From Sedimentisphaerales bacterium (lineage in GTDB: Bacteria; Planctomycetota; Phycisphaerae; Sedimentisphaerales; Anaerohalosphaeraceae), in contig JAFGPC010000090.1 in assembly GCA_016926155.1 (NCBI GenBank), forward strand, positions 1 through 64,000: a DNA stretch of 64,000 nucleotides, written 5' to 3'. A program made the position numbers and the translations under genes. Numbering within the stretch: position 1 is the first letter of the stretch; the number at the start of each line of letters is the position of its first letter. The notes beneath the pieces were generated by a model. It saw only the letters and a list, made by a program, of their open reading frames with translations, was not told the origin of the DNA and searched no databases. Below, one piece after another: positions 57,382 through 60,659 of this stretch.

Positions 57382-58578
57382 TCAGGTTAGCTCAGTTTCG
57401 AGGGTTTGATCCTGAATCTGACGATCCGGGTGATCAAGCATCTCCCATGCCATCAGGGCGACTTCATCGGAAGCCCAGCTCTGCATCAGCGGCGCCACCA
57501 GTTCTTTCAATTCCATACTGATCTTGACCAGAATGGATTTATTGCCGATCAGGGTTCCGCAACGTTCGACAATCGGCCGTACGGATGTAAAATAGGGCAT
57601 AAATTCGGTAACAAGCTCGCGTCCTGCCAGAATATTGATCAATGATAAGAATCGGGTTCGAATCAGCCAACGCCCCATCAGATGCCATAACAGGCGGCTG
57701 GATTGATACAGGATTACCATAGGACATCCTGCGGCAGCCACTTGTAGGGTGGCGCTGCCGCTGGCGACCAGGGCAAAATCCGATTGGTCGGCGATATCGA
57801 TTACATTGGCGACCGTATATTCGCATTTGAAACCGGTGATTTTTCGCTGTTTAAGAAGTTGCAATTTCTCCTCGTTTGGGGCTGTCGCCACAAATTGAGC
57901 CTGGGGCCACTTTTGCAGGAGTTGGATTGCCACTTTTTGCATTGCCGGCCAGAGCGACTTGATTTCAGCGGTTCGGGATCCAGGCAGAAGGGCTATACGC
58001 ACCTTTCGTGGTTCATAATTGGAATAGTCTTTAACTCGCCGGGTAAGGTCGATAGAGACGTCATCGAACAGTGGATTGCCGATGAATTGGGCGTCGATGT
58101 TTCGACTGCAGAACCAGTCCTCTTCAAAAGGAAGGATACAGGCCAATTTATCGCAGTTTCTACGAAGCTTGCCAATCCTCCAGGGAGCCCAGGCCCATAA
58201 TTGAGGAGCGACATAGAAGAGTGTGGGAATACCGTATCGTTTAGCAGCCTTGGCGACATGGAAATTGAAGGCCGGGGAATCACAGAGAATCACTAGATCA
58301 ACCGGATTTTGCCGAAAATAGGATTTGATATGCCGCAGAACCTTCCAAAAGAAGCCAGCTTGGCCGATGGCGTTGTAAATCATGGCTGCCCGGCGGACCG
58401 TGTCCTCCAGAACCTGACAACCAGTAGACCGCATCTGGTCCCCGCCGACACCGACCCATTCGATGTACTGGTTAAAGCCGCGGGCTTCGGCGGCGCGGAC
58501 CAAATGGGCACAGTGCTGTTCGGCGCTGGGCTCGCAGGCGCTGATAAAGATCCGTTTTCTAACTCTTGGCTCCGTCAC
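57382..58578 (-). CDS. lpxB: lipid-A-disaccharide synthase
   Basis: 398 residues of GT19. RKRIFISACEPSAEQH at the N-terminus, DSPAFNFHVAKAAKRYG, YYVAPQLWAW-like FYVAPQLWAWAPWR and LLPGSRTAEIKSLWP, and the C-terminal SGSATLQVAAAGCPMVILYQ are family motifs. It condenses UDP-2,3-diacylglucosamine and lipid X to make the disaccharide of lipid A, so the organism has an outer membrane with lipid A. GTG start with AGGGG eight bases upstream. No other lpx genes are adjacent. Confidence 0.95.
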   Translation of the reverse strand: MTEPRVRKRIFISACEPSAEQHCAHLVRAAEARGFNQYIEWVGVGGDQMRSTGCQVLEDTVRRAAMIYNAIGQAGFFWKVLRHIKSYFRQNPVDLVILCDSPAFNFHVAKAAKRYGIPTLFYVAPQLWAWAPWRIGKLRRNCDKLACILPFEEDWFCSRNIDAQFIGNPLFDDVSIDLTRRVKDYSNYEPRKVRIALLPGSRTAEIKSLWPAMQKVAIQLLQKWPQAQFVATAPNEEKLQLLKQRKITGFKCEYTVANVIDIADQSDFALVASGSATLQVAAAGCPMVILYQSSRLLWHLMGRWLIRTRFLSLINILAGRELVTEFMPYFTSVRPIVERCGTLIGNKSILVKISMELKELVAPLMQSWASDEVALMAWEMLDHPDRQIQDQTLETELT

Positions 58579-58976
58579 GGTATTGACCCCTGATGTCCAG
58601 AGTCGGGCGATTATAAACGAGACGACGTAGAGTGCAAAGGCTAATTTTGAGCATGAAGAATAGAAAATCGTTTAGCTAGGGTGATCTATAATCTTGGCGA
58701 CAGGAAATACCCTTCCAATATTTTTATAATAAACAGGAAAATAAGTCTATAATGCCTTGAAAAATAAATCCTAATCTGATGAAAATAACAGTAGAAATAA
58801 TCCCAGTAATAAACTGGGGATATGATAATGGGATGGGAATTCCAAGAGTCGAAAAACTCCTTGTTAAGTGTATATATATAAAGATCTTATGATTTAATTG
58901 GGGGGTGTTTAAATTGCCGGCTTATACATTCTTTTTAAAGACCGAAAATATTTTTATGAAAAAAGTAAAAAAATCC
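58579..58976. other. AT-rich gap upstream of the candidate RNA
   Basis: About 400 bases, clearly more AT-rich than the genes. It holds CCCAGT and ACTGGG as a hairpin (58802-58818) and a 17-codon frame (ATG 58829) with no good support. No real gene is seen. Confidence 0.5.
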
Positions 58977-59004
58977 TTGCTATAGGACCGATACGGAGTA
59001 TAAT
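58977..59004 (+). promoter_or_regulatory. promoter of the candidate non-coding RNA
   Basis: TTGCTA (58977-58982), a 16-base spacer and a perfect TATAAT (58999-59004). Transcription would begin near 59011. Confidence 0.7.
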
Positions 59005-59010
59005 TAAGTA

Positions 59011-59145
59011 GGATAGATAACGCTCTTTTTCTTCTTATAACTAACTTTTCTCACAACCGCTGAGGCGGATAATACGTTTGATATTGTTTCTTAATTCTGT
59101 AAAGCCTCAGCAAAGCCGGTGTGGAAACGCACCGGCTTTTTCTTT
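59011..59145 (+). ncRNA. candidate non-coding RNA with alternative helices and terminator
   Basis: About 135 bases between a promoter and a terminator with no ATG and no reading frame. CCGC-TGAG-GCGG (59058-59069) can form a small hairpin, but GCTGAGGC (59060-59067) also pairs perfectly with GCCTCAGC (59104-59111), so the two pairings exclude each other. It ends with the strong terminator below. The next gene is on the other strand, so it is not an ordinary leader. I do not recognise 6S, tmRNA, RNase P or SRP RNA. Confidence 0.6.
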
Positions 59146-59146
59146 T
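59112..59146 (+). terminator. Rho-independent terminator of the candidate RNA
   Basis: AAAGCCGGTG (59112-59121) pairs perfectly with CACCGGCTTT (59130-59139); the loop closes further to a GAAA tetraloop (TGGAAACG). A T-rich run follows. Confidence 0.93.
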
Positions 59147-59185: not shown

Positions 59186-59380
59186 TCAATTGTGATTGTG
59201 AGTGACCATAGCGGCTAACAGGATATGTCGAAGGCGATCCGTACTGAGTCCGTCGAGGTAACTTTCTGTAAAGTCCAGTCGAGGGCGACCCTGGAAGTGA
59301 AGCAGACGATCCTTCACCTGAGATTTGCTCAGGGTTGCAATCATAGAAACAATCTCTTCGACCGACTTACACTGCCTCAT
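59186..59380 (-). CDS. small helical protein, unrecognised
   Basis: 64 residues, mainly helical, with KSQVKDRLLHFQGRPRLDF and LSTDRLRHILLAAMVTHNHN. The even spread of charged residues and a GGGAG six bases before ATG 59380 suggest a real gene; the frame extends to 59467, but those residues look random. Such short proteins with RLRHILLAA ends seem common in planctomycetes (impression, not checked). Function unknown. Confidence 0.6.
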   Translation of the reverse strand: MRQCKSVEEIVSMIATLSKSQVKDRLLHFQGRPRLDFTESYLDGLSTDRLRHILLAAMVTHNHN

Positions 59381-59568
59381 TTCTGACTCCCATCTGTAAC
59401 ACACGACATCTTGATTGCGACTTTGTGTTCTTCGTATCGGAAAAGCCATTAAGGTGGTTAACTCCACGAAAGGAAGCGACCGATGAATTCCGAAAATTTT
59501 TTCTATCTCATGGGGTGTGTCAGTTCAGCCTGTAGCGATTATGATATAAGCGAAAGGTTTGGGATTGG

Positions 59569-59603: not shown

Positions 59604-60659
59604 ATGCGTACGGATGAATTAAATTATGAATTGCCGTTGGAATTGATCGCTCAACATCCGCCGGATCGGCGAGACCGATCTCAGCTTTTGGTGTTAGAGC
59701 GGATCTCAGGGAAGCTGACGGATCGTTTGTTTATCGATATTGGAGACTATCTTTGTGAGGGGGATTGTCTGGTATTGAACAATACTCGAGTGCTGCCGGC
59801 GCGGTTTTTTGCCCACCGACCGACAGGCGCCCGAATCGAAGGGCTCTATTTGAACAGTCCTCAGCCGGGGCGATGGGAGGTGATGCTCAAGAATGCTCGC
59901 AGAATCAAACCGGGGCAATCGCTGGTATTATTGGATCGAGAGGGAAGAGAGATTGTTGAAGTCCAAATTGGACAGGATTTAGGGCAGGGATACTGGTTTC
60001 TGGATTTACCGAATAAATGGGAATCTTTTGCCCTGTTGGAGCAAATCGGCTTTGCCCCTCTGCCCCCTTACATCAAGCGAACCGAACGGGACCGGGTACA
60101 ACGGGCGAGACGGGATCTGGAAAGGTATCAGACTGTGTTCGCTAAGACCGATGGGGCTGTTGCGGCGCCGACGGCTGGTTTGCATTTTACCGAAACTTTA
60201 CTGGACGATTTGAAAAAGCGGGGAGTGAAACTGGCCTATATTACATTGCATGTTGGAGCCGGTACATTCAAGCCGGTTACAACTGAGTATCTGGAGCAGC
60301 ATGACATCCATGAGGAGTGGTATCAACTGGATGCAGGCAATGCTGAAATCCTCAATACCTGTATTGAAAACGGGGGTAGGATCATCCCGGTCGGTACTAC
60401 CTCGGTTCGAACACTGGAAACCGTCGCGAAAGGACGTCAATTTCATCCCGAAACGGGAAAAACTCGGTTGTTTATCCTGCCGGGCTATCAGTTTCAGATC
60501 GTTGATGCCATGATTACGAATTTTCATCTGCCCAGGTCTACTTTGCTGGCGCTGGTCGGGGCTTTTGCCGGTCTGGAGACAATTCACAATGCCTATCGTC
60601 ATGCGATTCAGCAACAGTATCGTTTTTATTCGTATGGGGATGCAATGCTGATCCTGTAG
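59604..60659 (+). CDS. queA: S-adenosylmethionine:tRNA ribosyltransferase-isomerase
   Basis: 351 residues. Typical QueA: ELPLELIAQHPPDRRDRSQL at the start, NNTRVLPARF, KTDGAVAAPTAGLHFT and TFKPVTTEYLEQHDIHEEW, with THFHLPRST-like ITNFHLPRSTLLALV near the end. It transfers ribose from SAM to preQ1 in tRNA to make epoxyqueuosine. ATG 59604 begins at the family N-terminus, but no ribosome site is present. The frame starts upstream at 59559. Converges on the MazG-like gene. Confidence 0.96.
   Translation: MRTDELNYELPLELIAQHPPDRRDRSQLLVLERISGKLTDRLFIDIGDYLCEGDCLVLNNTRVLPARFFAHRPTGARIEGLYLNSPQPGRWEVMLKNARRIKPGQSLVLLDREGREIVEVQIGQDLGQGYWFLDLPNKWESFALLEQIGFAPLPPYIKRTERDRVQRARRDLERYQTVFAKTDGAVAAPTAGLHFTETLLDDLKKRGVKLAYITLHVGAGTFKPVTTEYLEQHDIHEEWYQLDAGNAEILNTCIENGGRIIPVGTTSVRTLETVAKGRQFHPETGKTRLFILPGYQFQIVDAMITNFHLPRSTLLALVGAFAGLETIHNAYRHAIQQQYRFYSYGDAMLIL

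Follow-up and report, generated by a model that had tools for sequence, protein, structure and literature searches.

A candidate single-copy structured RNA with an unpaired 5′ pyrimidine tract, kept through most of the order Sedimentisphaerales

Described small RNAs and the new locus

Enterobacterial small RNAs of the RybB and MicA type carry their seed at the 5′ end and depend on Hfq. The RNA considered in the present study resembles them in having a conserved unpaired 5′ end, a structured body, an intrinsic terminator and its own promoter, but they need Hfq, which was undetected here, and there is no homology. In Listeria, a CU-rich single-stranded element of the small RNA LhrC pairs with an AG-rich Shine-Dalgarno region, and LhrC has three CU-rich regions (loop, single strand and terminator loop) and several copies (PMC5880928). 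By analogy, the mode of action of the present RNA would come closest to that of LhrC and other CU-rich sRNAs, being likewise that of a small RNA with a single-stranded CU-rich element and an intrinsic terminator, but it has one 5′ tract, one copy and hypothetical targets, and neither sequence homology nor a relationship is claimed. 6S RNA (RF00013) is also a nearly ubiquitous, single-copy small RNA of the same genomes, but it occupies a separate locus, and the present RNA lacks its long closing stem with a central bubble. The L20 leader (RF00558) shares an A/U-rich region followed by a terminator, but no infC-rpmI-rplT operon lies downstream of the present RNA. The Rhodopirellula-1 motif is a candidate structured RNA reported from Proteobacteria and Planctomycetes (PMC2864571); the present RNA is likewise a candidate structured RNA of Planctomycetes but is set apart by that reported range, as it was not convincingly found outside one order of the Phycisphaerae. 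No small RNA described for Sedimentisphaerales was found in the open-licence literature, and the present RNA adds a new family to a kind of RNA that is already known.

In the window (the whole stretch of 64,000 nt that was analysed), the initial annotation had picked out a stand-alone non-coding RNA, neither a leader nor a UTR, pointing to a perfect TATAAT with a TTGCTA partner, about 135 transcribed bases without an ATG, a strong GAAA-capped terminator and a next gene on the opposite strand. This description held up well. Both hexamers are present, separated by a spacer of 16 nt, and the promoter is conserved in 84 relatives; the terminator, a stem of 12 pairs with a GAAA cap (59112-59139) followed by TTCTTT, covaries in relatives; 59011-59145 contains no ATG; and the next open reading frame is indeed on the minus strand (Table 1). 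Among the 84 relatives, each position of the -35 TTG is retained in at least 78, the 22 nt upstream of the -35 average 74% A+T (against 50% for the loci), and the -10 usually lies 15–17 nt upstream of the 5′ motif. Taken alone, promoter-like and terminator-like patterns in the region are close to chance (5 against 2.6 expected, and 2 against 0.8, respectively), so the reality of the RNA gene is settled by the conservation of the whole unit. The genes adjoining homologous loci differ (comM/yifB, lpxB, queA or pseudopilin genes), as do their strands, while the promoter–RNA–terminator unit is retained, and no same-strand gene keeps a constant position near the RNA. Since its neighbours vary, the RNA does not qualify as a cis element and, as expected of an sRNA, it has its own promoter and terminator outside any mRNA. 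Its fold has an energy of -37.8 kcal/mol (z = -4.6), equalled by none of 200 shuffles. Positions 59011-59145 almost certainly represent a genuine stand-alone structured RNA.

Some features of the surroundings were also recorded. The small minus-strand gene that lies beyond the RNA specifies a protein of about 60–90 aa with the motif LDFTxxYLxxLSxDRLRHILLAA and no Pfam match; it occurs in the window and at 33 of the 84 homologous loci, often between the RNA and queA. In one sister family (L046, L047, L049, L054, L058, L060) the RNA is followed by tandem pseudopilin-like genes, up to five, with product N-termini like MNKQKAFTLIELLVVIAI. The sequence TGCG often follows the terminator T-run in the clade (e.g., L009, L043, L046 and most homologues, and also the loci L176-L235 of genome G006); in 1.2 Mb of G006 it was found in 20 of 67 cases, against 10% after random T-runs, as if belonging to the termination signal.

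Table 1. Positions of the RNA gene, its elements and the neighbouring genes in the window
Feature	Position	Strand	Basis
lpxB, upstream of the RNA gene	57382-58578	-	
UP-like A-tract, immediately preceding the -35	58946-58976	+	sequence; A+T-rich in relatives
-35 hexamer TTGCTA (family consensus TTGCAA)	58977-58982	+	sequence, conservation
-10 hexamer TATAAT	58999-59004	+	consensus TATAAT in 84 relatives
Non-coding RNA, ~135 nt	59011-59145	+	ends placed by the -10 (5′) and the terminator (3′)
5′ pyrimidine tract GCTCTTTTTCTTCTTATA, unpaired; putative functional element (seed or protein-binding)	59022-59039	+	near-invariant
Alternative local pairing CCGC-TGAG-GCGG (hairpin), at most transient	59057-59068	+	not conserved
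P1 5′ strand, GCTGAGGC	59059-59066	+	covariation
Loop motif ATACGTTTGATAT, inside P1 (family form ATA..tTtG.taTat)	59072-59084	+	conserved
P1 3′ strand, GCCTCAGC	59104-59111	+	covariation
Intrinsic terminator, GAAA loop, T-rich tail	59112-59145	+	sequence; 11 pairs covary in 84 relatives
Small conserved ORF (93 aa), downstream of the RNA gene	59186-59467	-	
queA, beyond the small ORF	about 59604-60659	+	

Distribution and structure of the RNA

A plain DNA comparison against 59 genomes found seven homologues, all in the window's family, which share the order A-tract, TTG-type -35, TATAAT-like -10, about 16 nt and the near-invariant GCTCTTTTTCTTCTTAT, followed by a helix of 8–9 bp with a long loop and then a GC-rich terminator. 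Covariance models were built successively from 8, 30 and 84 sequences. The first gave matches in 33 of the 39 genomes of the window's family, the second in 104 of the 161 genomes of the order (59 of 84 genera, 6 of 7 families), nearly always one per genome, and the third gained further genera, so that the check proposed in the initial annotation, a covariance search and an alignment of relatives, returned a conserved RNA. No copy was found in the six genomes of family f5, a laxer search included, and the single weak match there was rejected as it does not resemble the RNA; G037 has a diverged but recognisable copy. Genome G040 carries two nearly identical copies (L124, L125) on different contigs. 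Beyond the order there was no match in 397 genomes of the class, and 246 genomes of the phylum gave just two marginal matches outside it (E about 0.004). The exact promoter-plus-tract pattern matched 16 times in 84,980 genomes; 14 of these are Planctomycetota and the two others (Roseivirga, Vibrio) are probably due to chance. As read from these comparisons, 59011-59145 is a single-copy non-coding RNA, independently promoted and terminated, that has been kept through most of a bacterial order.

The comparisons also show that the RNA has three parts, namely an unpaired 5′ pyrimidine tract, a long-range helix (P1) with a loop motif, and an intrinsic terminator. P1 corresponds to the pairing with a segment 37 bases further that had been noticed in the initial annotation; its strands GCTGAGGC and GCCTCAGC are exact complements, 37 nt apart, and the helix covaries at every pair. 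When RNAalifold was applied to a structure-free MAFFT alignment of 8 sequences, P1 and the terminator were recovered with eight pairs compensated. In the alignment of 84 sequences, which was fitted to the covariance model and is hence biased towards the structure, all 9 pairs of P1 (GCUGAGGC/GCCUCAGC) have two-sided changes and 95.6% of cells are paired, while for the whole structure all 20 pairs have two-sided changes and 94.7% of cells are paired, against 38–43% for slid structures. The 5′ strand of P1 pairs with its own 3′ strand at -11.4 kcal/mol, compared with -7.4 kcal/mol for that of a stranger from the same group, and P1 closes a loop of 30–45 nt.

Conservation is highest in the promoter, in the pyrimidine tract at the 5′ side (GCUCUUUUUCUUCUUAUA) and in the AUA..UUUG.UAU motif of the loop. 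The tract is unpaired in the MFE, centroid and consensus folds; its leading G is found in 80 of the 84 relatives, and several positions are conserved in at least 92%. From family to family its U-run varies in length and its inner C residues shift (CUUUUUCUUCU, CUUUUCUUCU, CUUUUUUUUCU), and sister families have an extra conserved, unpaired UUUUGG just before P1. A pseudoknot between CUUAUA at the 5′ side and UAUAAG in the loop was considered and rejected, as own pairs did not outdo swapped or shuffled pairs.

The local hairpin and other alternative readings

The initial annotation had drawn attention to two exclusive pairings of the 5′ strand of P1, which it regarded as switch-like, and had proposed that compensatory changes be sought in both helices. 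Both pairings do exist in the window, where the local hairpin joins CCGC (59057-59060) to GCGG (59065-59068), but the local one is not conserved, with all four pairs of its register present in just 10 of the 84 relatives, and compensatory changes are seen in P1 and not in the hairpin. A bistable switch, with GCUGAGGC alternating between the hairpin and P1, would be expected to conserve both; P1 alone covaries. Forcing the hairpin in the window gives -28.8 against -38.2 kcal/mol, a cost of 9.4 kcal/mol, and its probability in the full-length RNA is about 1e-6. It is favoured solely in nascent transcripts that end before about 59108-59109, where the 3′ strand of P1 emerges, and this dominance in truncated transcripts speaks for a switch, as does a slight excess for the P1 strand with its 5′ flank (own -3.53 against swapped -2.98 kcal/mol) in families other than the window's. 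Against it, the P1 strand with its 3′ flank shows no coevolution (own -0.58, species-swapped -0.67 kcal/mol), the P1 strand folds locally with its real flanks no better than with shuffled flanks (mean z -0.12), and, since P1 and the terminator stem do not overlap, no termination switch that could serve as a readout is apparent. An attenuator or antiterminator was rejected for the same lack of overlap. The switch is thus largely refuted and must be considered very improbable, and since the local form arises before the P1 3′ strand emerges, the hairpin would be at most a transient folding intermediate.

Known RNA classes fare no better. In the window Rfam gave no family at gathering score, and in 15 homologous loci the sole matches were two tRNAs, with nothing at the RNA itself, in agreement with the initial annotation, which had recognised no family. 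The best sub-threshold match, L20_leader with 27.2 bits against a gathering score of 58.7, could be taken as a hint of an L20 leader, but what aligns is the terminator together with A/U-rich sequence, and the neighbours are lpxB and queA, not infC, rpmI and rplT. A diverged housekeeping RNA such as 6S RNA is opposed by the finding of Rfam 6S at separate loci in 38 of 40 genomes searched, and the RF00013 covariance model had no match at the RNA locus; both identities are scarcely credible. The window's own genome has no Rfam 6S match, unlike those 38, which may reflect an assembly gap or a diverged copy. A Phe-rich leader peptide (MLFFFL) or attenuator, read as NTG CTC TTT TTC TTC TTA and a stop before the terminator, finds an ATG, GTG or TTG ahead of CTCTTTTTCTTC in 38 of the 84 relatives, but the start codon is replaced by TAG in 16 of the 84 and by ACG in the window, the leader is too short for a ribosome site, tract length shifts the frame between families, and no gene is constantly placed on the same strand. 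The in-frame stops and frame drift refute the peptide, leaving this reading exceedingly improbable.

Possible roles of the 5′ tract

Target complementarity of the tract showed no excess over controls; for long sites the scan covered one complete genome, and for translation starts it covered 1.2 Mb of G006, a relative. A small regulon may still exist. When the window's own genome was scanned in full with the 17-nt antiseed, no other site was found at 1–2 mismatches, and at up to 3 mismatches there were 24 sites (itself included) against 35 for the reversed control. With a 13-mer antiseed, in the own genome and the family, no common gene recurs among the matches listed. Antisense action on one gene was rejected on these two negative results. 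At the translation starts of G006 (941 regions called, 700 used for energies) the tract gave -8.16 kcal/mol compared with -8.18 kcal/mol for dinucleotide shuffles, and 12 strong sites compared with 10.3; a generic blocking of Shine-Dalgarno sequences was rejected, there being no more than for shuffled pyrimidine tracts.

Since none of the target tests rose above chance, the function of the RNA is one that we infer. The best explanation, given about even confidence, is a constitutive, Hfq-independent, trans-acting sRNA that acts through the 5′ tract. A strong promoter, with its A-tract and near-consensus hexamers, would provide an abundant, constitutive RNA, while P1 and the terminator would hold the tract single-stranded and protect the RNA, the local hairpin being a passing co-transcriptional intermediate displaced by P1. 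The tract could then act in trans, most likely by pairing, without Hfq, with a limited number of mRNAs at their purine-rich translation-start regions. In favour of this, the tract hardly varies and is left unpaired, which would be expected of a seed and makes it a conserved candidate for one. No Hfq was detected among 59 genomes, by a search that gave a match in five control genomes; this counts for Hfq-independent action, and an Hfq-dependent sRNA, which presupposes Hfq in the genome, does not fit. The target searches without signal and the drift of the tract between families count against an sRNA.

That drift is as compatible with a pyrimidine-binding protein as with an antisense seed, and it is possible, though on the unlikely side, that the RNA is a protein-binding RNA, decoy or scaffold whose 5′ tract binds such a protein (e.g., a cold-shock protein, ribosomal protein S1 or Rho, with UUUUGG as a further site in sister families), the protein being titrated or guided by the abundant RNA. 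The retention of pyrimidine composition while tract length drifts, the lack of pairing specificity beyond composition, the absence of detected Hfq and the second unpaired motif of the sister families would all fit, but GC/GU-UCUU and CUUCUUAUA are kept more exactly than composition alone requires, and the protein partner is hypothetical. What does the work is probably the unstructured, pyrimidine-rich front end. It is more doubtful, and put forward only tentatively, that the RNA is an abundant core RNA spanning an order of planctomycetes that lack Hfq, and that it works via a protein dedicated to binding pyrimidine tracts or via another sRNA chaperone; if true, this would be a regulatory RNA–protein system not known from model bacteria.

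The small RNAs of Planctomycetota are almost uncharted, and a survey that counts 345 distinct sRNA families for Proteobacteria has 8 for the PVC group as a whole (PMC9029176). The alignments made in the present study suffice for submission as a new Rfam family, and a strongly covarying, order-wide family from genomes in which Hfq is not detectable would offer a handle on post-transcriptional control in these bacteria.
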